Assembly: GCA_030593565.1 (NCBI GenBank)
Contig: JAUVGW010000009.1
Coordinates: 1 to 37,030 of the forward strand
Reading direction: 5' to 3'
DNA from: Phycisphaerae bacterium
Lineage (GTDB): Bacteria; Planctomycetota; Phycisphaerae; UBA1845; UTPLA1
Length of the DNA: 37,030 nucleotides
The position numbers and the translations under genes were made by a program. The notes beneath the pieces were generated by a model. The model saw nothing but the letters and a program-made list of their open reading frames with translations. It did no database searches and was not told where the DNA came from. Below, piece by piece: positions 1-17,340 of the stretch (positions are counted from its first letter, which is position 1; each line of letters opens with the position of its first letter).

Positions 1-802
1 CAACCGTCTCCCCCGCCGCCAATCGCTCCAACACCAAGTCCACGCGTTCCCACGGAATCGCGAAGCCGATCCCCCCGTCATACCACTCCGCCCCCGCCAA
101 CGGCCCACGGCCGCCCGCCATTGGCACGATCAACCCGATCACGCGTCCATCGATGTCGATCAGCGGCCCACCGTAGTTTACGGGCGACGTCTTCGCATCC
201 GTCTGCACGGCATTCCCGTTTCGTCGGCCCAATGCGCTGACGATCCCCAGCGACACCGACGGCCTCGCGCCGCCCAATCCCCGACCGCACGCAATCGCAT
301 ACTGCCCCACATCAGGCGCCTCGCCCACCACCCACCGTGCGGGTGTCAGCCCCGTGGCGTCGACCTTCACCATCGCCAGACGACGAATCAGATCCCGCGC
401 CAGCAGCTTCCCGACAAACCGCCGACCGTCGGAAAGCGTCACCGTAATCACGCTCGGATCCCGTGCGAAGTTGAAACTGCTCGTCAGAATCAGCCCATCC
501 GCCGACACGACCAATCCCGTCGTCGGCCCGTCACCGAGGCGAAACGTCTCCGCTGCAGGACCCCCGTACGTATTCCCAACCAACGGCTGCGCCCCGCCGA
601 CCGTCTCGATCGATACCACCGCAGGCTCCACAACCGAGACCGCCGCACGAATCACCTGCCCCCGCGCCTGATCAAAAACAGACGATGCCAACGGCCCACC
701 GTCGCCGTCGACACGAACATCAACCCCTTCCGCCGCACCGCCCACAGGCATACCCACAGCCAACGCCCCGCAAACCAGCACCTTCGCCACGAATTCCGCC
801 AT
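1..802 (-). CDS. trypsin-like (S1C) pseudoprotease, 3' end beyond window
   Basis: The ATG at 802-800 overlaps the previous gene's stop by one base (TGATG), so translation is probably coupled. The 267 visible codons begin with a short signal-like segment (MAEFVAKVLVCGALAVG, to about residue 25), then follow the chymotrypsin/HtrA fold: GLVVSADGLILT, VTLSDGRRF, LAMVKVD, SLGIVSALG, GGPLIDIDGRVIG and a final GFAIPWERV segment. Aligned by eye to HtrA, the catalytic His (TNNH) is Phe (TSSF), the Asp (TDLA) is Arg (RRLA) and the Ser (GNSGGP) is Tyr (VNYGGP). All three triad residues are missing, so it should not be a protease. The C-terminus, where a PDZ domain might lie, is outside the window. The fold assignment is firm; a binding or regulatory role is inference. 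Confidence 0.85.
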   Translation of the reverse strand, partial: MAEFVAKVLVCGALAVGMPVGGAAEGVDVRVDGDGGPLASSVFDQARGQVIRAAVSVVEPAVVSIETVGGAQPLVGNTYGGPAAETFRLGDGPTTGLVVSADGLILTSSFNFARDPSVITVTLSDGRRFVGKLLARDLIRRLAMVKVDATGLTPARWVVGEAPDVGQYAIACGRGLGGARPSVSLGIVSALGRRNGNAVQTDAKTSPVNYGGPLIDIDGRVIGLIVPMAGGRGPLAGAEWYDGGIGFAIPWERVDLVLERLAAGETV

Positions 803-1980
803 CACGGCTTCCCCCCCACCGTTAGCAACAGATGGACCACACGCTCGCCGCGCTTCACGACGAATTCCACGCGTTGCCCGGGCAACAGCGATTTCCTCAC
901 ACGTTCATAATCCGCAGCATCTCCGATCCGCCGGCCATCGATCGCGATAATCAGGTCGTCCGGCTCGATCCCAGCCGCCGCCGCAGGCGAACCGGACCGC
1001 ACGCGTGCCACGTACGGCGACACATGTCGATATCCAAACTTCGACAGCTTGATGCCGACGTACGGCCGCTGCAAGACGGCGTCACGCTTGGCCGCAGCCC
1101 CGCCGTCCGCGACTGACGCGGCAGGCTCCGTTGTCGCAGGCTCAGTCGCCGCCGCCGGTCCCGTCGTTGCCGGCCTCGCCGTCTCCGCTCGCGACGTCGA
1201 TCCGTCTCCAAGAAACGCGATCACCTCCTCCGACGGCAGCGCGTAGTTCAGCCGCGTATTCATCGTCGACGATTCGACGATCCGCCCGATCAGTCCGACG
1301 AATCGCCCCTGCCCGTCCAGCAGCGCCCCGCCGGGTGCCCCCGGATTCGACGTAATCGCATCATAAACCAGCACCGGCCCCCGATATGCGAAATCCTGCG
1401 CCAACCGCCGCGCATCGAGATCGACCCGCGCGCTCAAAACCCCGCGAACCACCGAAACCGGCTCGTCACCCTCCGCGATCTTGTACCAATTCCCAAACGC
1501 CAAGACCGTGTCACCGATTCGCAAATCGCCCGTCTCCGTCGGCGTCAAATGCGGCAACACCGACCCATCGATCTTCAACAACGCCAGCTGCCGATACTCG
1601 TCCACCCGCGCCAACGTGGCATCAAACGACCGCCCGTCGTTCACGACCACCCGCAGACCCCCGCTCCTCACCAACAAAGACAGCGTCGTGACGATCCGCC
1701 CGTCCTCGGAAACCAACACCCCCGTCCCATACCCATGCTCGCGGCCCAGCCCCGCCCCGTACAGTTTCACCACGGCCGACAGCCCCCGCTCGATCGGATT
1801 CACCACCACGCCGGACCCCACTGTCCGTTCGTCCGCGCCAACATCACCGGACAACACGCCAAACACCACCGATGCAATCGCAACAACCGCCAACGATCGC
1901 ATCCAATGCGGCCGACACTCGCGAGAATACCCCGCCACCCGGCTTGCCGTTTGGCGATCCAGTTTCCTACTCGTCTTCAT
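802..1980 (-). CDS. trypsin-like PDZ pseudoprotease
   Basis: Up to 392 residues. The ATG at 1980 overlaps the upstream stop (ATGA), but the first 26 residues read through the dispersed GGCTTGCCGTTTGGCG repeat (1941-1956). The ATG at 1902 opens a clean signal peptide (MRSLAVVAIASVVFGVLSG) and may be the true start. The S1C domain (about residues 65-270) keeps the scaffold strands, but the His position reads TTLS, the Asp position RQLALLKI and the Ser position NPGAPGGALL, so all three catalytic residues are changed (to Ser, Gln, Pro). A low-complexity Ala/Thr/Glu linker (about 270-300) leads to a C-terminal PDZ domain (PYVGIKLSKFGY, GSPAAAAGIEPDDLI). Probably exported to the periplasm or envelope. 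The neighbouring upstream gene is an intact paralogue, so an adaptor or regulator role is plausible but unproven. Confidence 0.88.
   Translation of the reverse strand: MKTSRKLDRQTASRVAGYSRECRPHWMRSLAVVAIASVVFGVLSGDVGADERTVGSGVVVNPIERGLSAVVKLYGAGLGREHGYGTGVLVSEDGRIVTTLSLLVRSGGLRVVVNDGRSFDATLARVDEYRQLALLKIDGSVLPHLTPTETGDLRIGDTVLAFGNWYKIAEGDEPVSVVRGVLSARVDLDARRLAQDFAYRGPVLVYDAITSNPGAPGGALLDGQGRFVGLIGRIVESSTMNTRLNYALPSEEVIAFLGDGSTSRAETARPATTGPAAATEPATTEPAASVADGGAAAKRDAVLQRPYVGIKLSKFGYRHVSPYVARVRSGSPAAAAGIEPDDLIIAIDGRRIGDAADYERVRKSLLPGQRVEFVVKRGERVVHLLLTVGGKP
1941..1956 (+). repeat. dispersed repeat A core (GGCTTGCCGTTTGGCG)
   Basis: This is an exact copy of a 16-bp core found ten times in the window. 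It falls in the coding extension between the ATG at 1980 and the signal-peptide ATG at 1902, so it either lengthened the N-terminus or lies in the leader of that gene. Confidence 0.8.
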
Positions 1981-3665
1981 AACGGCCGACTCGAAGTCAA
2001 CACCTCCTCGAAACGCTCCTCAACACGCAGCTCGCCATCCACATAAACCCACCGAACATGCGGCAGTTTCAACGCACCGCTCCGCCGATAGTCGCCATAT
2101 TCATAGCGCACTGCTTCACCTGTAACAGGATCCTCAAACGCAATGCGCAGAAGCCGCCCGTCACCATCGTCGAACGCCACAAGGCACACAGGCACACCGA
2201 CCGCCTCCCACCGCAGAACCACCGCAATCGAACCACGAACCTCGTCACCACCAATCACCCGACGGCCCCCGACAGCCGGATCATCCGACTCCGTCAACAC
2301 CGCCCACCGCACGGCACGCTCGACGGCCCCGTGATCCGCCGGCGCACCCGGCCTGCGTATGTCCGCAGCCGACTCCGTCACATCCAACGCGACGCCGTCA
2401 CCCACGGAATCACCGCTCCGCAGACCCGCGCCCCGCGCCCGCAGGAACCGCACAGCGCCCGCCGTCTCACGCCCCCCGACGAAATCCTGAAAACGTCCGA
2501 CCGCTCGCCGCACCGCCCGACGATTCGCCACCCCCGACACGGCATGTGACGACCACTTCTCGAACCTCGCAGCATCCTTGCCGCTGCCGAGATTCTCGTC
2601 GTCGCCCGGAAACGGCAAATCCCTCAAACGGAAGCGCGCTCGTTCCGTCGTCCCGCCACGCTGATACACAACCTCCACAGGCCAACCGCCGGGGTACGTC
2701 CCCAACAACGACAGAAATTGATTCGCCGTCCGAATCGTCTTACCGCCGAATCGAACGATCCGATCACCGGACCGCATCCCGGCATCGAACGCCGACGCCC
2801 CCGCCAACACCCGATCCACCAACACCACGCCGTCCTGATTCATAACGGTAAAACCAGCCGTCGCGTGCTTCACCGCATACCCCGCCCACAGCGCCGGGAT
2901 AAACCGCTTGATCTGATTGACCGAAATCGCGTACCCCACGCCCACATTGATCCGCCCGCGTTCTTCCAGCGAAATCCGACCGTTAATGCCGACGACCCGA
3001 CCCGCCGAGTCGAACAACGGCCCACCCGAATTCCCCGGATTCACCGGCGTATCCGTTTGAATGCAATCGGTGTAACGCAGTGCCCGCCCCATTCCCCACT
3101 GATAGCGATGCACCCCCGAGATAATCCCCAACGTCACCGTCGGCGTGTAGTCCTCCGCCAGCCCAAACGGGTTGCCCATCGCGATCGCCCCATCCCCCGC
3201 CCGCACCGCATCCGAATCCCCCAACGGCACCCAAGGCCAAATCACAGACGGCCGACCAGCGAAAGCCGACAGCTGACGGCCAACGGCTGATGGCTCCCCA
3301 CGTCGCCGCCCCACCAGCTTGAACATCGCCACATCGCCGGTCGGATCAACGCCCAGCACTTCATACTCGTACAAATGGTGGTCGGACAGCCCGCCCAGTC
3401 CCATGCGACTCGCCGCCATGCCGGCCACGACGTGATGATTCGTCAGGCCGTAGCCTTCAGGATCGATGATCACGCCCGCCCCGCCGCCCTGCCGACCCAC
3501 GTCGAACATGCACACCACCGCCGGCGCGGCATCTGCGATCACCTTGATCTGTGCCCGTTCAAACGCCCTGACACGGGCAAGCGCCCCGGCATCAACCGGC
3601 CCACCGCCACCCGCCCGCCCGGTGACAAGCAGACACATCAAAATCCACACCGGCGCTCCTGACAT
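1977..3665 (-). CDS. HtrA-like trypsin/PDZ serine protease, intact triad
   Basis: 562 residues. I chose the ATG at 3665, preceded by GAGG seven bases upstream; a GTG lies one codon earlier. A hydrophobic signal peptide (MSGAPVWILMCLLVTG) is followed by an S1C protease domain (about residues 35-255) with His in LTNHHVV, Asp in TGDVAMFKL and Ser in NPGNSGGPL. A PDZ domain follows (about 265-355; GASAFDAGMRSGDRI). The C-terminal ~200 residues are beta-rich and end in a YEYGDYR...LPHVRWVYVDGE strand pattern resembling LolA-like lipoprotein folds (weak). A short repeat (3247-3295) adds about 20 residues between FKL and PLGDSD, in a surface loop next to the catalytic Asp strand. It overlaps the next gene by ATGA. 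Probably an envelope protease acting with the two degenerate paralogues. Confidence 0.9.
   Translation of the reverse strand: MSGAPVWILMCLLVTGRAGGGGPVDAGALARVRAFERAQIKVIADAAPAVVCMFDVGRQGGGAGVIIDPEGYGLTNHHVVAGMAASRMGLGGLSDHHLYEYEVLGVDPTGDVAMFKLVGRRRGEPSAVGRQLSAFAGRPSVIWPWVPLGDSDAVRAGDGAIAMGNPFGLAEDYTPTVTLGIISGVHRYQWGMGRALRYTDCIQTDTPVNPGNSGGPLFDSAGRVVGINGRISLEERGRINVGVGYAISVNQIKRFIPALWAGYAVKHATAGFTVMNQDGVVLVDRVLAGASAFDAGMRSGDRIVRFGGKTIRTANQFLSLLGTYPGGWPVEVVYQRGGTTERARFRLRDLPFPGDDENLGSGKDAARFEKWSSHAVSGVANRRAVRRAVGRFQDFVGGRETAGAVRFLRARGAGLRSGDSVGDGVALDVTESAADIRRPGAPADHGAVERAVRWAVLTESDDPAVGGRRVIGGDEVRGSIAVVLRWEAVGVPVCLVAFDDGDGRLLRIAFEDPVTGEAVRYEYGDYRRSGALKLPHVRWVYVDGELRVEERFEEVLTSSRPL
3247..3295 (+). 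repeat. short in-frame repeat in protease gene
   Basis: The stretch contains GAAAGCCGACAGCTGACGG and CCAACGGCTGATGGC, partly self-complementary and low in complexity. On the minus strand it encodes EPSAVGRQLSAFAGRP, which interrupts the conserved link between FKL and PLGDSD of the S1C fold without shifting frame. Confidence 0.55.
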
Positions 3666-3705
3666 CACCGTTCCTCACCCCGATCCACCAACACCGATCG
3701 CGATC

Positions 3706-3827
3706 CGTTTAGCCGCGACCCACAGGGGAGCGCGTTGCGGCATCGGTGCCCCAAACTGTAGCACCGGCTGTACCCAATGCAGTCGACATTGGCGGAAAAA
3801 CCCCGCCACTCGGCTTGCCGTTTGGCG
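3706..3827 (+). repeat. composite repeat B+A at the NPCBM gene 3' end
   Basis: The left part is CCGTTTAGCCGCGACCCACA and GGGGAGCGCGTTGC; the right part is CGACATTGGCGGAAAAA, CCCGCCACTC and GGCTTGCCGTTTGGCG. The same two parts recur in the same order at 10737-10836. Read on the minus strand it gives the PPNGKPSGG...TRSPVGRG tail of the NPCBM protein, and its TTA supplies that gene's TAA stop at 3711-3709. Confidence 0.8.
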
Positions 3828-5139
3828 GCCGGAAATCCGCACCACGGCTAGTTTTGGAATGGCTCCTTCGGCGTATTAACCGCGCACTCCCCCAGTCGCC
3901 ATGATCGGAAAGATCAAGATCCTCCCCATAATCGCATTCCAGTGTCAACGTCTTGACACCACGCACATCGAGCGAAATCACCCGCGGCCGTTCGCCGCCC
4001 CGCACGGCCCCGGACGAATACAGTTCCCGCCCGTCGGCCTTCACACGAAACACCACGTTACCATGCGGCGCCACCAGATCATCCACCCCGATCATCGCCG
4101 AAAACCGCTCGTATTCACCATCCAGCGAATAGCTCACAGCGGAAAACGCATGAACGCCGAGACCTTTCTCATGAACGCGCCCCCCCAACGAAATCGGCCC
4201 TCCCGTGACGTTCTGATCCACATGAACCGGCCAATCCACATCAAACAGGCTTCGTCTCACCACGCCGGCAGGTTCCACATCCGACACGTAAACCACGCGA
4301 TGGCTCCGCAGCAGAACGCGCTCGACGCACCGCCACGGAATCGCCAGCTCGCCCAACGAACCCGCGTCAATCACGAGCCGGCTCGCGTCGGCTTTCACAA
4401 TCCGAACATCAAACCACCCACGCAGGCCCAAGTACACACTGACCGGCAGCCGTCCCCGCGACACTGGCGCTGCGCCAAGGACGACCGCATACGCCCGCTC
4501 CAGCGATGCCGTACGCACCTTCGCCCCAAACCGAAACGTCCAGCCCACAGGCGTCAAACCTTCCAACGCACCCGGAAGCACCGACGGCCCGCCCCCGCGA
4601 ACCACAATCAACACATCCCGCCCAACGGCCCGCGCCGCCAACCGCGCCTGCAACTCCCGTTCGGCCGCCGCATCCTCCGCGATGGAAAACCGCACAGCAG
4701 CCAAGGCCGTCAACGGCATCCGCACTGGCCGATCCAACCCAATATCAACACTCAACACATCCGCCCGCCCATCCGGCGGCGACCGAAGCCGACCCATCAC
4801 CCGGCCGCCGTCAGCAAGATAGAACATCCGCCGCCCCACCGAGCGATCCGCGGCCGTTCCCCGCGACACCCCCGCCCCCACAGGTTCAATCCCGTGCAGA
4901 TCTGACAACGCAATCTCGCGATCGCACCCGTCGGCCCAATACCGAACAATCCCGTCACCACCGATTGAAATCAACGAGGCAGAAATGGTCTCGGCCTCAA
5001 TCGTCGTCAGCCGTGCGCGCAGCGCCCCGTCAGGCCACGAATCACCGGGCGCGCTACTCGGCACATCCGCTACGGCCCCGGCCAAGCCGACGCCGACCCA
5101 CAACAACGCCCCCAGCAGGATGCTACCGACACTGCTCAC
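3709..5139 (-). CDS. exported NPCBM-domain protein
   Basis: 476 residues. The GTG start overlaps the preceding stop by four bases (GTGA), and a clean signal peptide follows (MSSVGSILLGALLWVGVGLAGA). Residues ~30-275 form an uncharacterised beta-rich region. Residues ~285-420 match the NPCBM carbohydrate-binding module of glycosidases: VDQNVTGGPISLGG, EKGLGVHAFSAVSYSL, FSAMIGVDD, VVFRVKADGRELY and LTLECDYGEDLDLSDHGDW. No catalytic domain is visible, so it may be a cell-surface glycan-binding protein. NPCBM modules usually end just after DHGDWGSARL; here about 50 more residues come from the repeat B+A element, which also provides the stop codon, so the original C-terminus has probably been replaced. 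Confidence 0.85.
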   Translation of the reverse strand: MSSVGSILLGALLWVGVGLAGAVADVPSSAPGDSWPDGALRARLTTIEAETISASLISIGGDGIVRYWADGCDREIALSDLHGIEPVGAGVSRGTAADRSVGRRMFYLADGGRVMGRLRSPPDGRADVLSVDIGLDRPVRMPLTALAAVRFSIAEDAAAERELQARLAARAVGRDVLIVVRGGGPSVLPGALEGLTPVGWTFRFGAKVRTASLERAYAVVLGAAPVSRGRLPVSVYLGLRGWFDVRIVKADASRLVIDAGSLGELAIPWRCVERVLLRSHRVVYVSDVEPAGVVRRSLFDVDWPVHVDQNVTGGPISLGGRVHEKGLGVHAFSAVSYSLDGEYERFSAMIGVDDLVAPHGNVVFRVKADGRELYSSGAVRGGERPRVISLDVRGVKTLTLECDYGEDLDLSDHGDWGSARLIRRRSHSKTSRGADFRPPNGKPSGGVFPPMSTALGTAGATVWGTDAATRSPVGRG

Positions 5140-6263
5140 GATCCGGATGCGTCCTTTGCAAGTTGTTCATAGTACTGTTCCAACAGTTCACGATACCGGC
5201 TCGGAAACTGCCGCTGCAACGCCTGCAAGACTTGTTCACGTTCCTTCGGCGGCATCTTCCCCCAAACCTCCCCCGGTGCCGCGCGGGCCTTCCGAAGCCG
5301 CCCCACGTCGCCCTCGCCCCCCGGCAACGTCGATTGCTTGGCGCCTTGATCCGGTGGGCCGCCACCGCCGCCAGGCTTATCACACCCGCCGTCCTTCTTG
5401 CCGTCGCCCTTCTTGCCCCCGCACTTCGATTGCTTCTCCTTCTCCTCGATCGCCTTGATCAATGCATCCAACAGCACAATCGCCTCCTCCTGACGCGCCT
5501 TGACCGACTCCCCCGTATTCTCGTTCTTGATCTTTCGATGCGCACAGGCCAGCAAGTCACGAACATCTCCCAGACCATCCGGCACACGCCGCGGCAACTC
5601 GGTCAGAATCCCCACTGCCGCAACGCGAAGACGCTCCGGCGCATTCGGATATCGCCGCAAGAACGACGACAGCGTGGCCTGCGCCGCCTCATATTCCACG
5701 TTGTGAACCTGACAATACCCACGCATGAACGCGATATCGCCCGCCTCAGATGCATAACGATCCACAGGCCGATAGGCTCCCACGACTCGTTCGAGCATCG
5801 ACTGACATTCGTCGATCCGATCAAGCTCGATCATCGCCGGCCCCGCCAGATGCGCCGCAGCCACCGCCAGGTAAGGATCATCATCCGCCGACAACGGCAC
5901 CAGAACCTCAACCGCCCGCCCCGGCTCGTCCTCGTCAAGCAGGTCCAGCCCCTGCTTGAACACAGGTGACAACACCGCCAGCATCTCGCCGACAAACATC
6001 CGACGGTCCTCGCCGGTCAAACCATCCCGCGACGCCAAGACAAAATCCCGCCGCTGCCGATCATACCGATCACCGGCAGCCACATGCGCAAGGAAGCCGG
6101 AATTCACATCATCGACGGAAAACACCGGTTGCGAAGTCGCCACACCATCTCCACCGTTGACAGATGCCCGCCCGGACGACGGTTCATCCGCCCCCCGCGC
6201 CATCGCCGACCACCCCAGCACGACACCCACAACAAAACAAACAAGTCCAACCCGCAGCACCAT
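5136..6263 (-). CDS. exported helical (TPR-like) protein
   Basis: 375 residues from the ATG at 6263 (a GTG lies one codon upstream). The signal peptide is MVLRVGLVCFVVGVVLGWSAMARG. Residues ~60-230 form helical pairs (VAAAHLAGPAMIEL; YEAAQATLSSFLRRYPNAPE) typical of tetratricopeptide arrays. A Lys/Gly/Cys-rich linker (about 270-300, KCGGKKGDGKKDGGC) leads to a C-terminal helix with PPKEREQVLQALQ and YRELLEQYYEQLAK. I recall similar tails in planctomycete proteins near large coiled-coil and DUF4175-like genes, but cannot check this. It overlaps the downstream gene by GTGA. No enzymatic motif; a scaffold role in the envelope is inference. Confidence 0.8.
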   Translation of the reverse strand: MVLRVGLVCFVVGVVLGWSAMARGADEPSSGRASVNGGDGVATSQPVFSVDDVNSGFLAHVAAGDRYDRQRRDFVLASRDGLTGEDRRMFVGEMLAVLSPVFKQGLDLLDEDEPGRAVEVLVPLSADDDPYLAVAAAHLAGPAMIELDRIDECQSMLERVVGAYRPVDRYASEAGDIAFMRGYCQVHNVEYEAAQATLSSFLRRYPNAPERLRVAAVGILTELPRRVPDGLGDVRDLLACAHRKIKNENTGESVKARQEEAIVLLDALIKAIEEKEKQSKCGGKKGDGKKDGGCDKPGGGGGPPDQGAKQSTLPGGEGDVGRLRKARAAPGEVWGKMPPKEREQVLQALQRQFPSRYRELLEQYYEQLAKDASGS

Positions 6264-6295
6264 CACAAAAACCCCATCACAGTTTCATAGCATAG

Positions 6296-6338
6296 AATTT
6301 CGGCTTTCGACTTTTCTGATTTCGGCTTTCGCCGTTTC
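6296..6338 (+). repeat. CGAAARY heptamer array starting at a stop codon
   Basis: On the minus strand the stop TGA is the start of TGAAACGGCGAAAGCCGAAA, followed by more units (CGAAAGC, CGAAATT). The array fills most of the 73-bp gap between this stop and the next ATG. Confidence 0.8.
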
Positions 6339-8349
6339 ACTGCCCTTTCCGCATCTGCTCGTCCATCGCCCGCGCCATGTCGGCCACCGCCGCTTGACGT
6401 TCGCACAATTTCCGCAGCCGCGCCGCGATCTGCTCGCCCGCGGCATCAGGACCGGCACGAACCTCCGCCAACAATCGCGTAGCCTGGTTGACGCGAAGCT
6501 GACACGATCGCAGCAGCTTCAACTCTGCCGAGCCCGGCAGCAGTGATCGACACCGCCCACCACCGCCGCCACCGCCACTGCCGCCGAAATCGTTCTCGTC
6601 CTGCTGCTTCTCCACCGCCTCGATCAGGTCTCGCAACGTCTGTTCAATCTCACCTTGAATCGCCCGCACATGTTCCCCTGTATCCGCCGCCGCGAGCCCG
6701 TCCGCCGCCTGTATCGCATCATCGCGAACCTGCCCCACGATCTCCGGGAACACCGCTGTCGTCCCATCCTCCACCAAAATCGTCAACGCCTCCTCCGCCT
6801 GATCGCCGACCTGACGCTGATCCTGCGAAACCTCCGCCAAACGCAACTGATCCATCCGCGTCCAATGCTCCTTGCCCAACTCCGAAAGATGGTCGGTCGC
6901 CTTGCTCACATCGATCTGCCGAGCCAACATCGCCCGAAACCGCGTCTCCAACGCCGCGAGCGCCTCTTCCTGCTGCTCCTTCCGAAGCTGGTCCAACGCA
7001 TCCTCGACTTCATCCTGCGCCTGCTCCAACTTCTCGAGCGCCTTTCCCTGTTCGTCAAGCGCCTTGTCGAATTCCCCCTTCTCCAGCTCGTCCGCAGCCC
7101 CCTCTTGATGCGGAACAGCGCCTTCCACATCACGCGGACGCGGACCAGGCGGTCCCGCCGGTTTCTTGTCATCCGAATCCCCGCCCCCTTTGGCGCCCTT
7201 GTCTTTCCCACCGCCGCCGTTCTTTCCCCCCTTACAACCCTTCATCCCCTCAGCAACCCGCTTCGTCTTCTGGGCCGTCTCACGTTGCTCCGCAGCCTGT
7301 TTGTCCAGGTCCGGCTTCTCCCGTTGCCGACGCGCCTCGTCCGCCAACTCCTCCGCGGCCTCACGAAGTTCCTCGACCGCACGCGATTGATCCGATTTCG
7401 CCTCCCGCGCTTCGCCGCGTCCCAGTTTCGCCTCGGCCGATTTCATCGCCCCGGCGGCATCGTCCAATTCTGCAGCCGCCGCCTTCATCGCTGCCCCACC
7501 GTCATCCTCGCCAGCCGTGTCATCACCGGCACCTTCCCGCAACGTCGCCGCCAACGCCTCCGTCTCGCCACGCACCTCGACCTGGGCTTCTGCCGCTTTC
7601 TTGACCGCCGGCTCAGCCCGGTCGGTCTCCGACGCCAGATCCTGCTGCCGATCCAGCAGGCGCCGTGCCGTCTCCGCCGCCTTCTCCAAAACCTCCGCCC
7701 GCGCCTCGGCAGCCTTCGCCGACTCCGCCGCCGCCTTCTCCCGCCTCTGCTCCTCGACGATCGACTTCAGCGCCTCCCGCAATTGTGCCAACCGGGCAAT
7801 ATCCTCCTTATGCTGATCGAGGTTGTCCGGCTCCTCCAACAGGTATTTCAAGACGAACTGCAAATCCGCTGCCACCGCCTGCTGTTGGTCGGCCGCGTCA
7901 GAATAGCGGTCATTTTCCAGGCTCAGAATGATCGCCTCAATTCGACGCCTGATCTCAAAACGACGCGCTGTCCCCAACGCCTCCACCAGCTTGTCGGCCT
8001 TCTCCGGATCCGATTCACGCAGTGCGCGACTCAACCGAAACAGGCGATCCTCGAGCCGCTCCACCCGGTCCCGTATGATCGCCTGACGCTCCGCCAACGG
8101 ATGCACCGCCTTCCCGTCTGGCGCCCCATCATCGTCACTCGGCACCACCGCTGCGGCACTCGTGGCCGACGCATCCCCGCCTCCTGTTGCGCCCTTCCCG
8201 GAATCCTGCGCAAGAACCACTGCCCGCGGCACGCCCGCGACGATCCCCAACCATGCCAATGCCACCGTCAATGCAAAACGCCGACCATGCCCAACGGTCG
8301 GCCCGCAACCCAATAATCCGCCAATCCGAAACTCACGACGCAACTTCAT
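6337..8349 (-). CDS. large exported coiled-coil protein
   Basis: 670 residues. The ATG overlaps the upstream stop (ATGA). An N-terminal hydrophobic segment (RRFALTVALAWLGIVAGV) followed by AVVLAQ suggests a signal peptide. Residues ~80-345 and ~420-500 are rich in Ala, Glu, Lys, Arg and Gln with long uninterrupted helices (ERLEDRLFRLSRALRE; EQRREKAAAESAKAAEARAE), a coiled-coil signature. Gly-rich linkers interrupt it (about 370-385, and GGSGGGGGGG near 605). A C-terminal helical stretch (LKLLRSCQLRVNQATRLL) ends in KLCERQAAVADMARAMDEQM. No catalytic motif. Coupling to the preceding membrane gene suggests the two products work together, perhaps as an envelope-spanning scaffold. The stop codon lies in a heptamer repeat. 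Confidence 0.82.
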   Translation of the reverse strand: MKLRREFRIGGLLGCGPTVGHGRRFALTVALAWLGIVAGVPRAVVLAQDSGKGATGGGDASATSAAAVVPSDDDGAPDGKAVHPLAERQAIIRDRVERLEDRLFRLSRALRESDPEKADKLVEALGTARRFEIRRRIEAIILSLENDRYSDAADQQQAVAADLQFVLKYLLEEPDNLDQHKEDIARLAQLREALKSIVEEQRREKAAAESAKAAEARAEVLEKAAETARRLLDRQQDLASETDRAEPAVKKAAEAQVEVRGETEALAATLREGAGDDTAGEDDGGAAMKAAAAELDDAAGAMKSAEAKLGRGEAREAKSDQSRAVEELREAAEELADEARRQREKPDLDKQAAEQRETAQKTKRVAEGMKGCKGGKNGGGGKDKGAKGGGDSDDKKPAGPPGPRPRDVEGAVPHQEGAADELEKGEFDKALDEQGKALEKLEQAQDEVEDALDQLRKEQQEEALAALETRFRAMLARQIDVSKATDHLSELGKEHWTRMDQLRLAEVSQDQRQVGDQAEEALTILVEDGTTAVFPEIVGQVRDDAIQAADGLAAADTGEHVRAIQGEIEQTLRDLIEAVEKQQDENDFGGSGGGGGGGRCRSLLPGSAELKLLRSCQLRVNQATRLLAEVRAGPDAAGEQIAARLRKLCERQAAVADMARAMDEQMRKGQ

Positions 8350-10649
8350 GGCCCGTCCCTCGGTTGACGCGCCGGCTCCTCGCCGAACAGTTCCTCGATT
8401 TCCCGTTCGAGTCGAGCCCGCGTGTCCTCGTGAATGTCCTCCTGAAGACGAAGGATATCCTGCAATAGCGAAACAGCCTCGTTATAGCCTTCCCATCTAA
8501 CCAAGTTCGACAGGATCGAATACATCATCCTAACGATTCTAGCCTGTGACTGTTCCAAGTCATCAGCCGTCTCAGCAGCGAATCCCCGACCCAACCGCGA
8601 CAGCGCATCCACCGCCGCCTCCATCTCCTTGCCAATCAAACGCCCCATCGGAACGATCACGCCATCGTCCAATCGCCGCCGCGTCTTCGGTCCCGCAAGC
8701 CGATTAACCCGCAATTCGGCAAGGATCCCCTCAAACTGACCACGCACGGTCTTGAGCCGACCGATCTGCTGACGCTGTGTACGCGCCTCCTGGGCATATC
8801 GTGTCGACGCGCCCACGCCCGTCGCCCTGCTGCGAAGGTCAACGATCCGCCGTTGAATCTGCTCCTGCGCCTTGATGATCTGCTCAAACTCCCGGCGCCA
8901 TTCGTGCTCGCGCCGACCCAACTCCGCCAGCAACTCCTCCGGCCGAACAACACGCAACGTATAGGCAACCGTCTGACCGCACGCCCCCCCCCGATCCGGC
9001 AACCCATGATCGCGACCAACGGACGACATCGCCCCCTGACTCGGCCCCTGATTCCCCCGCCGCTCGTCGCCATCGCCATCCGAACTGGCGCCCGCCGGCT
9101 GATAATCCGCCGCCACGACCTGCAGCGTGATCTCGTCCCCGGCATGAACCGACAACGGCGATAGCGGCCAGACCTGTTTCACCGTGTACTTCATCTGACC
9201 GGGCTCGAACCCGGCGAGCGATTCAAACTCGGCGGCAGGCTGCGACGTCACCGCCGCCCCCGCCCCCGGCCCGCGCACAACCCGGTACGCCAGTTCCACA
9301 CTGCGCAATCCCAAGTCGTCCTCGCACTCGACCGCCAGATTCAACGCCGCCCCCGCCGTCACGATCTCGCCCGTTCCCGGCAGCGACAGCCGAACCTTTG
9401 GTGATGGATCGGCAAGCAGACGAAATCCATACGTCACCGGCTGCTTGTCGTCGAACCCGTCCCGGTCGACAAGATCAAGGAAATACATACCGCTCCGTGG
9501 CGGCTCGAACGTAGCCGACACCCGATCACCCGACGCCGTCTGCGTCTCGATCACCCCGCCACGCGCGCAGCGCAGAACAGCCGACGCCACCGGCTTGTTC
9601 AACACCGCCTCGATCCGTACACGCGAACCGCGCAGAATATCCGCACTCGTCTGGCCGCTCGGCAATACAAACGAGGATTGCCCCGTATAGGACGGCGGCT
9701 GAATCTGCACGCTCACCTCCCGAACCGACGGACGATTCACCGCCTCGATACGATACCATTCCGTCGGCTCATCCGCGCCGATCCGCGAAACGAGAAACCG
9801 AACCTTCATCGACTGTCCCAACGGCCCATAGTCCAGGATGAACTCGTCCAGGCCGCGACGGTCCATGCCGCGTCTGGACCTTCCCCCCGACAGCGGCGCG
9901 AACTCCGCAATCAGCCCACGCGGCACCTCGCCGTCGGCCTTCGCCACGACAGTCAGATCATCCCCGATCGGCCACCGCAACCGCCCCCCCGCAAAACCCT
10001 CAACCGTTATCCGCGTCCGCGACGGCCACGGAACATCCGCAAGCAACAGGTCCCGCGCGACGTACGTCCCAACAGTCTCGCCGGCGAACAGCAACATGCC
10101 GATCACCATCGCCAACACGCCCAGCCCCAGAACCTCATGACGTCGCTGACGCCGACGGTGCAAGACGGCCTCGGGGCGCACCGACTTGAACCGCCGCGCC
10201 GATTGATCGATCAGCGCCGCCACCATCGCCGGCGATTCACGCGCGGAATCCACCTGCACAACACCCGTCGCGTACGCCACCGCCGAGACCAACAAATCGT
10301 TCAACACCGGGTTCCGCCGCTCGACAAGCGCCGCAACATCGTTCACGTCTACCCGAACGCGGGCAGCACGCAACACATCCACCCATAACCGATGCCCGAG
10401 CAAACACAGTAGCGCCAACAACAAAACAACCCGCGGCCCGATCCCGAGTACCAGCAACCGGTCAACGCCAAAATGCAGCCCAACGGCCGCAGTCATGACA
10501 ACGGCGAGACGACACGCCCCCTGCACAAGGACATACCGCTTCAGCCGGCCCCCGACCCGCCGCAACGAACCGAGCACTTCGGCTTGGAAATCAACCTCCC
10601 GTCCGTCACGATTCACATCGTCTGACCTCATACAAGCGACCGCCCCCAC
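8346..10649 (-). CDS. large membrane protein of the MoxR/VWA cluster (DUF4175-like)
   Basis: 767 residues from 10649; the ATG at 10631 (MRSDDVNRDG) is another possible start. Two hydrophobic helices lie near residues 45-90 (LVLGIGPRVVLLLALLCLLG) and one near 172-195 (VLGLGVLAMVIGMLLFAG). A long extracytoplasmic region with Ig-like beta segments follows (PSVREVSVQIQPPSYTG; GMYFLDLVDRDGFDD; SVELAYRVV), then C-terminal coiled coil (EWRREFEQIIKAQEQIQRR to the end). This layout matches DUF4175-type proteins that sit beside coiled-coil partners in planctomycete MoxR/BatA clusters; the family name is from memory. It overlaps the coiled-coil gene by four bases. Confidence 0.78.
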   Translation of the reverse strand: MGAVACMRSDDVNRDGREVDFQAEVLGSLRRVGGRLKRYVLVQGACRLAVVMTAAVGLHFGVDRLLVLGIGPRVVLLLALLCLLGHRLWVDVLRAARVRVDVNDVAALVERRNPVLNDLLVSAVAYATGVVQVDSARESPAMVAALIDQSARRFKSVRPEAVLHRRRQRRHEVLGLGVLAMVIGMLLFAGETVGTYVARDLLLADVPWPSRTRITVEGFAGGRLRWPIGDDLTVVAKADGEVPRGLIAEFAPLSGGRSRRGMDRRGLDEFILDYGPLGQSMKVRFLVSRIGADEPTEWYRIEAVNRPSVREVSVQIQPPSYTGQSSFVLPSGQTSADILRGSRVRIEAVLNKPVASAVLRCARGGVIETQTASGDRVSATFEPPRSGMYFLDLVDRDGFDDKQPVTYGFRLLADPSPKVRLSLPGTGEIVTAGAALNLAVECEDDLGLRSVELAYRVVRGPGAGAAVTSQPAAEFESLAGFEPGQMKYTVKQVWPLSPLSVHAGDEITLQVVAADYQPAGASSDGDGDERRGNQGPSQGAMSSVGRDHGLPDRGGACGQTVAYTLRVVRPEELLAELGRREHEWRREFEQIIKAQEQIQRRIVDLRSRATGVGASTRYAQEARTQRQQIGRLKTVRGQFEGILAELRVNRLAGPKTRRRLDDGVIVPMGRLIGKEMEAAVDALSRLGRGFAAETADDLEQSQARIVRMMYSILSNLVRWEGYNEAVSLLQDILRLQEDIHEDTRARLEREIEELFGEEPARQPRDGP

Positions 10650-11029: not shown

Positions 11030-13738
11030 CTACAGCAACCGCGCCTTCTTCCGCAATATCCACTCAACCGTCAGCAGCCCGACCAACAACACAAGCACAT
11101 ACCATCGATCCCAAAGCGCCCTCGGCAGTCCCCGAACAGGCGGCGGCATCCGGCTACGCTCGCGAATCATCTCCGCCGCCTTCCCGGCTTCATCCACCTC
11201 GAAATACCGTCCCCCGGTCTGCTCGGCGAGTCGCACAAGCCCCGCACGGTCCATCGCCGTGTCCCGCATCTCCACGTCGGACTGTGCCACGACGATCTCC
11301 TTCGCCGCCCGCACGCCTCCATTCAACGCCGCCCCCCCAGGCAACACCACCGAGAACCGAAACGTCCCCGCGCTCCGCGGCACAAACCGCCCCTCGTAAT
11401 AGCCTTCCCGCCCCGGCATAGGCGCGAGCGCCACCACATCATTCCCACGATCGATCCCTACTCCGCCGTATTCGTCACGCGAAACCGATTCCGCGCCAGG
11501 CCGTTCGCCCACGCAGGACGCTGTCATCTCAAGTTCCGGAACAAGCAACGGCTCGAACCCCTCGTCCAACGCGCGAACCGTCAACACGACGGATTCGCCA
11601 AGCTCGAATTGCTCCTTCGACGTCAGAATCAACGCCCGTGCCCGACCACCAAGTTGCTTACCCTCGACAAGGTACCGTAGCGTCCGTATCCAAAAACGAT
11701 CGAAAGCCTGTTCGTCCCCCGTCCGCCATCGCCACGTCGAGTCAAACCCCAGGTACGCGCTGCGACCCGTACCCACAAACTGTGTCGCCAACAGCACCGC
11801 TCGCCCGAAACTGTTGCCCACACGCGGATTCGAATGTCGCAGCAACACCCGCGCGACAGGCTTCTCCCGCCGCACCGGATAATGCCAATAGACGCCTTCC
11901 AGACCCGCCCAAACCGCGCGGTTATCTAACGGCTGCTCCGCCTGACATACAATCGGATTCGATGCCGCCTCCGGAGGAATCACCGGCGGCCACGCCTTCG
12001 TTTGATAGTGCCCAAGATCGTTCAGCATGATCTCCGCGTCCGGCTCCGCAACAATCGGAAGAACATCGACGAGCGCCTTCGATCGCGGCGACCGGAAAAA
12101 CGAACCCGCGTACTTGTTCCCCGCCGCGTACAGCACACCGCCGCCCTGCCCGGACACAAACTCCGCCACCAACTCGCCCCACCCCGGCTCGAACGTCTCC
12201 GGATCGCAATCGAGCAGAATCACCCCGTCGTACGCAAACAATGCGTCAGGCGTTGCCGGCAGTTCCGTAATGACCGTGTTCCCGTCCCGAACCGCACCAA
12301 AATCCGCTGACTGCAACCACGTGGACAGGTCCACAGTTGAATCCCGCTCGAGCATCCGCGACAGGAATCGGTACTCGTAGCTCGGCGCCCCCGCCACGAC
12401 CAAGACGCGCATCTTGTCGTCCAACACGCGCAGCGCCGGTATGATCTCCCGCTGATTGTCGCTCGTGACGGCCTCGTCTGGCTGCGGTACGATCCTCGCC
12501 GTATACGTAACCGCCCCGGGCTCCGAAACCTCGCGAGTAAACACAATCCGCGCCGAACGACCTCCCCCGCGAATCACCGCCGTCTGATTGGCAACCACCC
12601 GATTCGTCTCCCCCTCGCCCGACCTTCGCTCCAACAGCTCGATCCGCGCCGTCCGATCCTCGATGCCGCTCGCCGCGATCCGGACCACAACGCTGAATGG
12701 ATCGTTCTTGAATACGCTACGCGGGGCCGATGCCTCCACAATGCGCAGATTCACAGGCTCCGACGGATCACCCACACCGACGGCATACAACGGCACGCCC
12801 AGGCGCTTCAGCATCGCCCCCACGACCGCCGGCGATTCCCCCTGATTGAAGCCGCCGTCCGTCAGCAACACCACGCCCGCCACCGGCGCGCCCCCCGCCG
12901 AATCCAACGCGCCGCGCACCGCAACGCCCAGGTCGGTCGCCGGACCGCGCGGCACTATCTCGATGCAATCGGCAACCTCGCCGCCCCGGGAAGAAGACTG
13001 TGGCACCGCCGTCTCGGCGGTGGGACCGCCGGATCCCGCCGAACCTCCGCCATCCTGATCCACCAGCGGCGCCTCCGACGCGCCATCACGACGGCCCCGT
13101 TCCGCCCCGCCCCCCCGTTCGCCGTCGGTCATCTCGATCAATCCCGCAAACGTCAGGCCGTCTCCAAACGTGAACACCTTCACATTGTTCTTCACCGCCA
13201 GCGTCGTCAGCAGACGCCGGCCCGCATCGTTCAAGACTCGTGTCGCCAAGTCCGCACGGACCACGCCCTCAGTCGGTATTTCCCCAATCACGTTCTCCAC
13301 CCGCCGGGCGCCCGCCTCAGTTCGATACCGATCGCCCAACGACATGCTCGCCGATGCATCCGCCAGCACAAGCGTGTACGCGTCTATGCGATGATGAACG
13401 TAATCCACGACCACCGGCTCGAGTCCCACCACCCCCAACAACGCCAGCACAAGACACCGACACACCACAAGCGCCCACCGCAGCGTCCCCCCAACCCGCC
13501 CCCTCCCCTCGCGTCGATAAAGCCACACGACTGCGTACAAACCCACAAGTGCCGCAACGGCCCCAACAAAAAGCGCATTACCGCTCGACCAACGGGCAAA
13601 CTCCACCCGCTGCTCAACATCGATAGTCTCCACTCCTTGTGCCAGCACCGAAAACATCCCGTCAACCCGTCCCATCAACCCGTCCGGCCCCCAACGCATC
13701 ATTTCACAAACGCAACAACAGATGAAAAACCTCACCAC
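11030..13738 (-). CDS. membrane VWA / glutamine-amidotransferase-like protein
   Basis: 902 residues from 13738; the ATGs at 13702 or 13675 are equally possible and I cannot choose by RBS. Two N-terminal TM helices (about 52-72 and 86-108) precede a VWA domain whose metal site reads LADASASMS (DxSxS) with VVLLTDGGFNQG further on. After Ig-like strands comes a Rossmann-like GATase1-type domain (RVLVVAGAPSYEYRFLSRML; DGVILLDCDPETFEPGW; GGGVLYAAGNKY) with no clear catalytic Cys, then a beta-rich part and a C-terminal TM helix (WYVLVLLVGLLTVEWIL) with a basic tail. This is the usual third partner of MoxR-DUF58-BatA clusters. A short hairpin repeat (13004-13022) adds TAETAVPQ in a linker inside the VWA domain. 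Confidence 0.85.
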   Translation of the reverse strand: MVRFFICCCVCEMMRWGPDGLMGRVDGMFSVLAQGVETIDVEQRVEFARWSSGNALFVGAVAALVGLYAVVWLYRREGRGRVGGTLRWALVVCRCLVLALLGVVGLEPVVVDYVHHRIDAYTLVLADASASMSLGDRYRTEAGARRVENVIGEIPTEGVVRADLATRVLNDAGRRLLTTLAVKNNVKVFTFGDGLTFAGLIEMTDGERGGGAERGRRDGASEAPLVDQDGGGSAGSGGPTAETAVPQSSSRGGEVADCIEIVPRGPATDLGVAVRGALDSAGGAPVAGVVLLTDGGFNQGESPAVVGAMLKRLGVPLYAVGVGDPSEPVNLRIVEASAPRSVFKNDPFSVVVRIAASGIEDRTARIELLERRSGEGETNRVVANQTAVIRGGGRSARIVFTREVSEPGAVTYTARIVPQPDEAVTSDNQREIIPALRVLDDKMRVLVVAGAPSYEYRFLSRMLERDSTVDLSTWLQSADFGAVRDGNTVITELPATPDALFAYDGVILLDCDPETFEPGWGELVAEFVSGQGGGVLYAAGNKYAGSFFRSPRSKALVDVLPIVAEPDAEIMLNDLGHYQTKAWPPVIPPEAASNPIVCQAEQPLDNRAVWAGLEGVYWHYPVRREKPVARVLLRHSNPRVGNSFGRAVLLATQFVGTGRSAYLGFDSTWRWRTGDEQAFDRFWIRTLRYLVEGKQLGGRARALILTSKEQFELGESVVLTVRALDEGFEPLLVPELEMTASCVGERPGAESVSRDEYGGVGIDRGNDVVALAPMPGREGYYEGRFVPRSAGTFRFSVVLPGGAALNGGVRAAKEIVVAQSDVEMRDTAMDRAGLVRLAEQTGGRYFEVDEAGKAAEMIRERSRMPPPVRGLPRALWDRWYVLVLLVGLLTVEWILRKKARLL
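13004..13022 (+). repeat. in-frame CACCGCCGTCTCGGCGGTG hairpin
   Basis: An 8-bp stem with a 3-base loop, preceded by CTGTGG exactly as in other copies of this family. The stem differs from the usual CACCGGCG/CGCCGGTG form: GG to GC in the left arm is matched by the complementary change in the right arm. It encodes PTAETAVPQ on the minus strand. Confidence 0.75.
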
Positions 13739-13849: not shown

Positions 13850-16126
13850 TCACCCCCGTCGCCCAAACCACCAAGCCATCACCTGCTCGAACATCAGAAC
13901 GGTGATCGCGGCCAGCAACAATGGCCACCACAGTTCATGCCGACCGCTCGACGCCTCGTCTTCGAAGACCGACAGGTCACGCACATACTCGAACGGCACC
14001 CCGATCAAGGCATCTTCCAACTTCACCCTGCCCGCGCCGGCCAGGTTGGATTCCGCCGCGTCCGCGTTCACCGCCGCATACCGAACCACCGCCTCCCCGC
14101 CCGCCCCCGTCAACTCGATGCGATAGACACCCGTCTTCCAAGTCGCACGGATAGGCAGCAAACACGCCCCGTCATCCCCCGTCTCGATCTCGACGAAGTA
14201 TGCCGGCTCAACCGGATAGTCCGGCGTCTCAATCCGGGCGGAATGTGCAGATAAACCCGATTCCACCGAGCAAACCAACGGCATCCCGACCACAGCCGTC
14301 AGCCCCGCGCCGGACCGCCGGGCGGCGTACTGCACCAGTTCCAGCATCAACGGAACATAGCTGAAGCTCCCGGCCCAATCGTTCCATTCCTGATCGCAAC
14401 TCGTCGTCACCAGCACGCACAGGCCCCGCCCATACCGTCGCTCCAATATGGCCGGCGAATGCGCCGCATCGTCGAACCGCGCAAAGACCGCGACATCCTC
14501 CCCGTCGGGCGATGCCGCCGCCCCCTCGACAGCCAACGCCGAATCCGAAAACGCCGACACCTGCACCACCCGAAGCACAGAAGCCAGTTCACCAACAAAA
14601 GCCCGCATCACAGGATGGTCCACATCCCAGTCGCCCAACGCAAACGGCCCCGCCCCGGCCGGCGGACGCACGACATCCCCCACAGGCCGCGGCAACAGTC
14701 CCCGCCCTCCCGCGTACAGATGCGCCCGGTAGTACTCCACATCGACCTGATCCCCCAAAAAAACAATCAACCCGCCACCCTCGCGCACGTACGACTCGAG
14801 ACGACGCAAGCCCCCCGTACCCAGCCGATACACGTTCGCAAGGATGACAGCGTCATATTCCCCCAACTCCAACGCCTCCAGGTCCTCCACCCGCACGACC
14901 ATCAGTTCATTGCCGCTAGACGCCCGCCCCATCGGCCGCAGCGCCGTTTTAAGCAAATACACCTCGTCCAGGTACGGATCGTCACTCACCTCGCCATCCA
15001 CAATCAGCAGCCGAACAGCAGGCACGACGTCCACAGGACACCAGCGCGTATTGTCCAGCGCCAGACCGTCGCCTGCCGCCACCCCGCCCAATAGCTCGAC
15101 CCGCAGCACCTCCGAACCCTCATTCGGAAACGTGATCTCCACCGGCTCGCGAACCGTCTGCCGCGGCCCAATCCGCGGTATCACAATCGGCGGCAACGTG
15201 TGACCGGCCAACGAGACCATCAACTCGACCTGCCGAACAGGGCCCGTCGTATGGTTCGACACACCAACCTCGAACCGGGCCGCCACACCAGCCACAATCT
15301 GCGACTGATCCGCGCGAACCTCCGTCACCGCGACATTCCCCGGCGAACCCACGCCCACATCCAGCAAGACAAGATTCACCGATGCACCGTCCTCCACCAG
15401 CCGCACCAACGGACCAACCGGACCCGACGCCCCCGCTGCCTCCGCGGACACAGTCCAATCCACGCCCTGGAAGTCGCTCGCAATATAAACCGTCACATTC
15501 GTCTGCGCTGGCACGTCCCCCACCATCGCGGCAATCACCGCAAATGCATTCGCCATTCGCGCCGTCGTCTGCGAAGCAGTAGCGGCATCCAACCAACCGC
15601 GAAGCTGATCGAGATGGTGCGACCCCAAATGCGGCGCCGTGAAAACCGGCCGCCGAGGATCGCTCGTCCTTAGCAACGTCACAGGATTGCCCGGCGACGT
15701 CGCGGCAATCGATCGGGCCATCTGTTCCAGCGCGCGCTTCGCGCGATCAAAAACCGCCTCCCCGGCATCGACTCCGGATGGCGGCCGATACGCCATCGAA
15801 TAGGAATCATCCAGAAGGAAGATGCGATCCGTCCGGGCCTCCGCCCCCGCCAGCAAGCCGAGCAGCCCCCCCCGCACAAACGGTCTGGCCATCATGACAG
15901 CGATCAGGAGGACGGCCAAACACCGAAGGAACAGCAGGATCAACTGCTCCAGACGAACGCGACGCCGATTACGCCGGTGAGCCTCCAGCAGGAACGTCAT
16001 GGCCGCCCACCGGACGCGACGGAACCGACGTCTTGACAAAATGTGAATCAGAATAGGGCTCGACACCGCGCCGACGCCCAGCACCAACGCGGGATTCAAC
16101 AGAAAACCGGATAGCCAATCGAACAT
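13850..16126 (-). CDS. BatA-like membrane protein with VWA domain
   Basis: 758 residues from the ATG at 16126 (MFDWLSGFLLNPALVLG). Longer readings begin inside a hairpin repeat and are less likely. The N-terminus is the aerotolerance-regulator/BatA domain: TM1, then HILSRRRFRRVRWAAMTFL, then TM2 (LILLFLRCLAVLLIAVMMA). A VWA domain follows (FLLDDSYSMAYRPP, DxSxS metal site; NVTVYIASDFQG). Next come Ig-like strands, a GATase-like segment (AVILANVYRLGTGGLRRLESYVREGGGLIVFLGDQ), further beta strands and a C-terminal TM helix (LWWPLLLAAITVLMFEQVMAWWFG). In related clusters this protein is membrane-anchored and works with MoxR and DUF58. Its TGA stop opens the heptamer array downstream. Confidence 0.87.
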   Translation of the reverse strand: MFDWLSGFLLNPALVLGVGAVSSPILIHILSRRRFRRVRWAAMTFLLEAHRRNRRRVRLEQLILLFLRCLAVLLIAVMMARPFVRGGLLGLLAGAEARTDRIFLLDDSYSMAYRPPSGVDAGEAVFDRAKRALEQMARSIAATSPGNPVTLLRTSDPRRPVFTAPHLGSHHLDQLRGWLDAATASQTTARMANAFAVIAAMVGDVPAQTNVTVYIASDFQGVDWTVSAEAAGASGPVGPLVRLVEDGASVNLVLLDVGVGSPGNVAVTEVRADQSQIVAGVAARFEVGVSNHTTGPVRQVELMVSLAGHTLPPIVIPRIGPRQTVREPVEITFPNEGSEVLRVELLGGVAAGDGLALDNTRWCPVDVVPAVRLLIVDGEVSDDPYLDEVYLLKTALRPMGRASSGNELMVVRVEDLEALELGEYDAVILANVYRLGTGGLRRLESYVREGGGLIVFLGDQVDVEYYRAHLYAGGRGLLPRPVGDVVRPPAGAGPFALGDWDVDHPVMRAFVGELASVLRVVQVSAFSDSALAVEGAAASPDGEDVAVFARFDDAAHSPAILERRYGRGLCVLVTTSCDQEWNDWAGSFSYVPLMLELVQYAARRSGAGLTAVVGMPLVCSVESGLSAHSARIETPDYPVEPAYFVEIETGDDGACLLPIRATWKTGVYRIELTGAGGEAVVRYAAVNADAAESNLAGAGRVKLEDALIGVPFEYVRDLSVFEDEASSGRHELWWPLLLAAITVLMFEQVMAWWFGRRG

Positions 16127-16136
16127 CAACCCACCA

Positions 16137-16261
16137 AGCCCACGGATATCAATCCGTGGGCCCAACCGCCACCGTCACAAACCATCCCCACATTCCAATC
16201 AAACGCCCCTCCGCCGCCCAAGCCCACGGATATCAATCCGTGGGCTCAACCGCCACCGTCC
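16137..16261 (+). repeat. two direct copies of a CCCACGGAT hairpin unit
   Basis: CCCACGGATATCAATCCGTGGG occurs twice (about 16139 and 16223), each followed by CTCAACCGCCACCGTC or CCCAACCGCCACCGTC. Each copy forms a 9-bp stem with a short loop. The pair fills the gap between the DUF58 and BatA-like genes. Confidence 0.8.
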
Positions 16262-16263
16262 CG

Positions 16264-17340
16264 TCATCGCCGCGCCTTCACCGCCCGCAGCCGCGCCGCC
16301 AAATATCCTCGCAACGCCATATCGAGCGGGTCCATCGTAGAAAGCCCCACGTAGTCGATGCGATCGTTCATACAAGCGCCGCGCAACCCGCCGACAAACG
16401 CCCGAACCGCCGCCAGATAGCTCGTTCGTAACGACTGCGGATCGGCCTGTAACCGAAGCTCCGGCGACTCCAATCCCTCGAACAGCGTATTCTCCTGAAA
16501 CGGAAACTCCCGCTCGTCATGATCCAGCACGTGCATCACGACAACATCGTGGTGCGCATAACGCAGGCGCCCCAATCCGACCACAACCTCATCCGGATCG
16601 CCCAACATATCGGAGACAACGATCACCAGCCCCCGCCGCCCCAGCTTCCCCGCAATCTCCGCAAACACCCCATCCCACGATCGCACCGACGAATCGTCCC
16701 GCATAGCCGCCCGTGGCAAAACTGTGGCACCGGCGTCTCGCCGGTGGTTTTCACGGGGAGCATCGGCGTCTCGCCGGTATTCCCGCTGTTTTCCCTTTTG
16801 CCACGGGCTGATAGGCCCCGTCGCACCGTCTGAACCGGTCGATTCCATACCGAGTTCAAGCTGGCGGATCAGCGACCGCAAATGACTGTGGCTCGACAGG
16901 GCCGGCACCTCCGCGCGAATCCCGTCGTCGAACAGAATCAGCCCGACCGCGTCGCGCTGATGAATAAGCAAATACCCTAACGAAGCGGCAATAGTCGCCG
17001 CATATTGGTACTTCGTCATTCTCCCCGAATCCGTGTCATGTTCCGGATACCGCATCGAGCCGGAACAATCCAACAGAACATACGCCCGCAGATTCGTCTC
17101 CGCCTCGAACTGCTTGACGTAAAAACGATCCGACTTGCCATACACGCGCCAATCCAAATGCCGAATGTCGTCCCCAGGCACATACTCCCGATGCTGTGCG
17201 AACTCCACCGACTGACCATGGTACGGGCTCTCGTGCATCCCCCCCATGAACCCCTCGACCACAAACCGGGCGCGCAGCTCCAGACTCCCGATCTGGGCCA
17301 GTATCTCCGGTCGAAGGTACTGCTTCACATCCAACGCCAT
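16264..17340 (-). CDS. DUF58 (VWA-like) protein
   Basis: 358 residues from the ATG at 17340, eight bases after AGGAG. Family hallmarks are clear: the start MALDVKQYL, SVEFAQHREYVPGDDIRHLDWRVYGKSDRFYVKQFE (the DUF58 core, about residues 45-80) and LLDCSGSMRY, a DxSxS metal site. The C-terminal half keeps the VWA fold (RRGLVIVVSDMLGDPDEV; VVVMHVLDHDE). DUF58 proteins accompany MoxR ATPases, and the MoxR gene is directly upstream. About 35 residues in the middle (about 177-211; QREYRRDADAPRENHRRDAG) come from an in-frame copy of the CAGCCCGTGG element, between the QLELGME helix and SSVRSWDGVF. Confidence 0.92.
   Translation of the reverse strand: MALDVKQYLRPEILAQIGSLELRARFVVEGFMGGMHESPYHGQSVEFAQHREYVPGDDIRHLDWRVYGKSDRFYVKQFEAETNLRAYVLLDCSGSMRYPEHDTDSGRMTKYQYAATIAASLGYLLIHQRDAVGLILFDDGIRAEVPALSSHSHLRSLIRQLELGMESTGSDGATGPISPWQKGKQREYRRDADAPRENHRRDAGATVLPRAAMRDDSSVRSWDGVFAEIAGKLGRRGLVIVVSDMLGDPDEVVVGLGRLRYAHHDVVVMHVLDHDEREFPFQENTLFEGLESPELRLQADPQSLRTSYLAAVRAFVGGLRGACMNDRIDYVGLSTMDPLDMALRGYLAARLRAVKARR
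16708..16810 (+). repeat. CAGCCCGTGG hairpin element inside the DUF58 gene
   Basis: The ends are inverted: GCCCGTGGCAAAA on the left and TTTTGCCACGGGC on the right. Inside are a CACCGGCGTCTCGCCGGTG hairpin and a second GGCGTCTCGCCGG unit linked by GGTTTTCACGGGGAGCAT. About 102 bp, so the host frame is kept. The intergenic copy at 36401-36528 has the same plan. Confidence 0.85.

Follow-up and report, generated by a model that had tools for sequence, protein, structure and literature searches.

Proteases of the HtrA family are textbook homotrimers whose subunits activate one another. The closest known case of an active HtrA acting together with an HtrA-fold pseudoprotease is MamE/MamO from magnetotactic Alphaproteobacteria, where MamO is required non-catalytically for MamE-dependent proteolysis (PMC4794232). 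An account from 2016 gives Deg5/Deg8 from Arabidopsis chloroplasts as the only hetero-oligomers of the family (PMC4877387). We analyzed a 37,030-nucleotide stretch of planctomycete DNA (the window, contig JAUVGW010000009.1) that carries three adjacent HtrA genes, which we call HtrA-A, HtrA-B and HtrA-C, or simply A, B and C. A is an intact protease, and B and C are pseudoproteases in which every triad residue has been replaced. We found the three genes together across Planctomycetota, with B and C under purifying selection, and B and C are very probably functional non-catalytic partners of A.

One intact catalytic triad among three HtrA genes

The window is one complete contig of a Planctomycetota genome bin whose closest relatives are Phycisphaerae metagenome-assembled genomes (MAGs), and C is therefore truncated at the contig end. 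The original prediction, made from the window alone, described three co-directional HtrA-fold reading frames: one intact protease and two copies stripped of their catalytic residues. Our analysis bears this out. All three genes lie on the minus strand and match Pfam Trypsin_2 (E=3e-25 for A, 6e-19 for B and 4e-22 for C), the active-site motifs that had been quoted for each protein were all found, and a family alignment places the His-Asp-Ser triad of an S1C enzyme in A only. Signal-peptide-like N-termini are present on all three. A and B have PDZ_2 matches (Pfam), and C orthologues carry a PDZ domain at the C-terminus, the part of C that is missing here. Each protein has the trypsin-like double beta-barrel and C-terminal PDZ domain of the HtrA/Deg (S1C) fold, the PDZ domain of C being seen in its orthologues. 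The PDZ domain that had been pointed out in B is there, but its retention is not peculiar to B, since C orthologues also end in one. The 4-nt overlap reported between A and B was found as described; the 1-nt overlap reported between B and C holds for only one of two start codons of C (Table 1). A structural model of C (predicted local distance difference test, pLDDT, 88; predicted template modelling score, pTM, 0.83) shows an HtrA fold, with DegS and DegP as its top PDB matches.

Gene A of the window also contains an in-frame insertion, RRRGEPSAVGRQLSAFAGRPSVIWPW, after the catalytic Asp region (approximately 3230-3310, minus strand). This insertion is absent from relatives, and its DNA core (3265-3290) is unique within the genome bin.

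A conserved trio across Planctomycetota

We compared the neighbourhoods of B orthologues, which are present in most of 60 relatives, and scanned contigs for C, using the best 80 of 377 loci. Removing duplicates gave 127 distinct planctomycete loci, and most of the genomes compared were MAGs. All three genes are present in 94 of the 127 loci, which are distributed over many planctomycete families. In each of the 94 they are co-directional and ordered A-B-C, with exactly three HtrA domains and no fourth. In most of the remaining loci a contig end interrupts the set or C lies at another place in the genome. Only planctomycete-like loci, a few of them in MAGs labelled otherwise, were seen among the best 80 of 377 in the scan for C, which was not a systematic search beyond Planctomycetota.

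The state of the triad is equally constant. A has His, Asp and Ser in 103 of 103 distinct orthologues. B orthologues have His in 0 of 104, Asp in 8 and Ser in 1; the sole protein whose nucleophile position holds Ser (G/Q/S at the three sites) lacks His and Asp. Core C orthologues have none of the three residues (each 0/117). Their Ser position is occupied by Tyr (110) or Phe (7), and their His position by Phe in 106 and otherwise by Trp, Tyr, Ile or Val. In five loci from Schlesneria-type and other Planctomycetia-like genomes, C is extended at its C-terminus by a long stretch, giving frames of 650-700 aa, and one genome has a B gene among unrelated neighbours with no adjoining A or C.

We also scored co-occurrence in a phylum sample of 199 genomes. 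Strong matches were found in 33 genomes for C (E<=1e-70), 32 for B (E<=1e-60) and 34 for A (E<=1e-95); these cut-offs were chosen after seeing the gap in scores, and strong matches stood clearly apart from background. A and C are present in all 32 genomes that have B. One genome has C, at a contig end, with no B detected, and the extra A genome carries a divergent trio.

Pairwise codon models were applied to close pairs, with saturated pairs ignored. The ratio of nonsynonymous to synonymous substitution rates (dN/dS, omega) ranged from 0.017 to 0.17 for B and from 0.02 to 0.09 for C. Both ranges resemble that of active A and are not near 1, and omega=1 was rejected in every comparison. Together with the fixed order in 94 of 94 complete loci, these values uphold the earlier argument that B and C are selected for a non-catalytic role. 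In a tree of 140 domains, built by a quick method with support from the Shimodaira-Hasegawa-like approximate likelihood ratio test only, A, B and C form one clade each (support 97, 91 and 98), and the genome's other HtrAs fall near A. Because B and C are one clade each, the loss of catalysis dates far back and did not recur locally. The tree places B and C as ancient rather than recent paralogues and excludes a duplication restricted to a single genome.

The window is one MAG contig whose end cuts C, and B and C could in principle be decaying duplicates or artefacts of annotation or assembly. We regard the chance of this as negligible: dN/dS is well below 1, frames are open in more than 90 loci, each protein forms one ancient clade, and the trio also occurs on single-contig or complete chromosomes (CP054190.1 and genomes G209/G232). 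Decay into pseudogenes is refuted by the dN/dS values, open frames, conservation and clades. A, B and C have also diverged in a correlated manner (Mantel r 0.80-0.84; null maximum 0.20), a correlation that can be obtained from shared ancestry alone.

A second gene order, B-C-A, occurs in other planctomycete families, where two triad-less HtrAs are followed by an active one. It is complete in about 12 loci (examples are L183, L194, L196, L197, L199, L201, L204 and L212). In a joint tree the first gene groups with B (91), the middle gene with C (95) and the last, active gene with A (96), so the two orders are cyclic permutations of one ancestral trio. C of the B-C-A type has lost His and kept Asp and sometimes Ser, which suggests that His was the first triad residue lost in C.

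A proposed division of labor

A and B form a single open frame in 16 distinct loci. On the A tree these fusions require 6 changes, of which well supported branches force at least 4; by this reconstruction the fusion arose independently at least about four times. No B-C fusion was seen among the 127 distinct loci. One A-B fusion was modelled with AlphaFold2 from 16 sequences, giving a pLDDT of 81 and a pTM of 0.75 with no predicted aligned error (PAE). This pTM is higher than expected for two independently placed halves, which is only suggestive.

We examined the residues that link HtrA subunits. In the DegS activation cluster, Arg178 in loop L3 of one subunit reaches the LD loop of its neighbor, and Thr167 and Gln191 take part (PMC11642142). 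Replacing the equivalent arginine in HtrA1 (R302A) abolishes activity and leaves the trimer intact (PMC5666011). A has the Arg178 equivalent in 91 of 92 orthologues and the Gln191 equivalent in 92 of 92. C has both in 92 of 92, though it is catalytically dead; its Arg178 equivalent is Arg194. L3 is 10 residues long in C, 19 in A and 22 in B, where the long loop is conserved; the short L3 and the Arg are found in C of both gene orders. That a dead C never loses the Arg that would activate its neighbor is what a mixed trimer predicts. A donor/acceptor ring with B, based on loss of the LD aromatic from C, was considered and dropped, since per-column counts show mostly Phe, Leu or Tyr at the Tyr162-equivalent position of C.

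We propose that A is the sole catalytic subunit of one envelope protease with divided labor. B and C would be obligate partners of A in the assembly, HtrA subunits with no catalytic part of their own. The simplest form would be a 1:1:1 heterotrimer in place of the homotrimer, given that HtrA works in threes and that the genes always number three, with a single active one among them. B and C would supply PDZ domains of their own together with remodelled activation loops (a long L3 in B; a minimal L3 and invariant relay Arg/Gln in C), gate substrate access, and switch the active site of A through the HtrA relay from L3 to the neighboring LD loop. The A-B-C machine would in turn be the proteolytic arm of the MoxR-DUF58-BatA-VWA-DUF4175-TPR-NPCBM envelope operon described below. 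We assign a probability of about 0.6 to this complete statement, that of a hetero-oligomeric envelope protease in which A is catalytic, B and C are regulatory, and the whole is an arm of a MoxR-type operon. Its strictest form is more tentative, with odds slightly short of even: an obligate asymmetric A:B:C heterotrimer with one active site per trimer, controlled by two ancient pseudoprotease subunits and coupled to the MoxR-type AAA+ envelope system. The original prediction had suggested, among other roles, that the pseudoproteases may regulate the active partner. Regulation is consistent with the fusions, with the co-occurrence and with the conservation of the relay residues, from which we infer the complex itself.

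The scaffold is complete in each of the three proteins, and PDZ domains are kept in B and C. These features would also suit three separate homotrimers, with B3 and C3 binding peptides, as chaperones or as capture modules, and either stacking on A3 or feeding it, and Deg5/Deg8 offer a precedent in being built from homotrimers (PMC4877387). Such an arrangement is plausible in outline but unlikely. The set has a constant three members with one active, separate homotrimers sit poorly with the repeated fusion of A and B into a single chain, and C holds the inter-subunit relay Arg/Gln yet has lost most of L3. A further alternative starts from the dead site of C, where an aromatic cluster (F111/F113/Y211) is conserved. 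MamO is an HtrA scaffold that has become a metal binder (PMC4794232), and B and C might likewise have been repurposed for unrelated binding of a metal, glycan or lipid, lying beside A only through a common pathway. We consider this improbable in view of the A-B fusions, the exact co-occurrence even where the genes are unlinked, and the activation-cluster residues conserved in C.

Several observations count against the proposed hetero-oligomer. The evidence for an A-B-C complex consists of sequences and single-chain models, and the pTM of the fusion, which comes without PAE or coordinates, says nothing about likeness to HtrA trimer packing. B has no Gln191 equivalent and has not kept the Arg178 equivalent. 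In a few genomes C, or the whole set, is unlinked: the C that goes with loci L043/L050 is at L171, and in G269 and G286 the genes are far apart, with A, B and C all present despite the wide separation. Finally, the homotrimeric construction of Deg5/Deg8 favors the other arrangement, and MamO activates MamE with contact between the two undetected (PMC4794232).

Operon context and comparison with known systems

An eight-gene block on the same strand precedes A-B-C (Table 1). Its order is complete in seven of the compared genomes and nearly complete in another, and these represent several families. Most other loci, too, have the coiled-coil, TPR and NPCBM genes next to the trio.

Table 1. Positions in the window of the HtrA trio and the upstream block
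Feature	Position	Strand	Details
HtrA-C	2..805	-	268 aa, 3' end open; pseudoprotease; triad positions F111, R142, Y211 (family alignment)
B stop/C start overlap	802..805	-	4 nt with GTG 805 as start of C; 1 nt with ATG 802
HtrA-B	802..1980	-	392 aa; pseudoprotease and PDZ; triad positions S101, Q131, P216 (family alignment)
A stop/B start overlap	1977..1980	-	4 nt
HtrA-A	1977..3668	-	563 aa; signal-peptide-like N-terminus, intact S1C protease domain, PDZ, C-terminal extension
HtrA-A triad	H79 (3434-3432), D112 (3335-3333), S214 (3029-3027)	-	Family alignment
NPCBM-domain secreted protein	3709..5139	-	Directly upstream of A; conserved neighbor
TPR-like protein	5136..6266	-	Conserved neighbor
Coiled-coil protein, weak DUF4175 similarity	6337..8349	-	Conserved neighbor
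DUF4175 protein	8346..10649	-	Conserved neighbor
Large protein, weak VWA match	11030..13738	-	Conserved neighbor
BatA/VWA membrane protein	13850..16165	-	Conserved neighbor
DUF58 protein	16264..17400	-	
MoxR AAA+ ATPase	17593..18693	-	First gene of conserved block

A 26-bp dispersed repeat, CCCGCCAC[CT]CGGCTTGCCGTTTGGCG, occurs in the window at 1931-1956, 3802-3827, 10811-10836 and 32306-32331. The genome bin contains 24 copies with at most 2 mismatches, and a reversed control gave 0. One copy is translated near the N-terminus of B and another near the end of the NPCBM gene.

In the literature searched, which left out most subscription papers, we found no description of the planctomycete trio, an absence that is no proof. 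If true, an asymmetric A:B:C trimer would introduce a quaternary principle new to the HtrA family, and a phylum-wide natural set with one active member and two dead ones would allow subunit-by-subunit dissection of the inter-subunit relay. As a testable planctomycete envelope machine, the trio would provide the MoxR-DUF58-Bat operons, which are poorly understood, with a concrete output in the form of proteolysis.

We compared the trio to described proteases with which it shares a fold or a logic. DegP, DegQ and DegS (HtrA, MEROPS S1C) share its fold, PDZ architecture and envelope location, and A, B and C all align with them. These proteins are homo-oligomers of active subunits, whereas the triads of B and C are replaced. 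MamO differs from B and C in keeping His and Asp (its Ser is changed to Thr), in its TauE transporter domain and metal binding, and in its magnetosome role (PMC4794232). The planctomycete trio, for its part, has two pseudo-members, replacement of all triad residues, PDZ domains, signal-peptide-like N-termini and a MoxR-type operon. Membership in the MamO family was rejected: the NCBIfam MamO model gave 28 bits for A and 41 bits for B, with none listed for C, against a cut-off of 800. Arabidopsis Deg5/Deg8 are a hetero-oligomeric HtrA/Deg protease made of paralogues, as is proposed for the trio, but have two members, unlike a set in which one is active and two are dead. The ClpP/ClpR core of chloroplasts and cyanobacteria shares the logic of active and inactive paralogues in one protease core, and differs in being of another fold and family, ATP-dependent, and cytosolic or stromal (PMC6508832, PMC7966870). 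ClpP/ClpR is the best functional analogy for the trio, and a set with one active member and two dead ones, if true, would be its HtrA counterpart.

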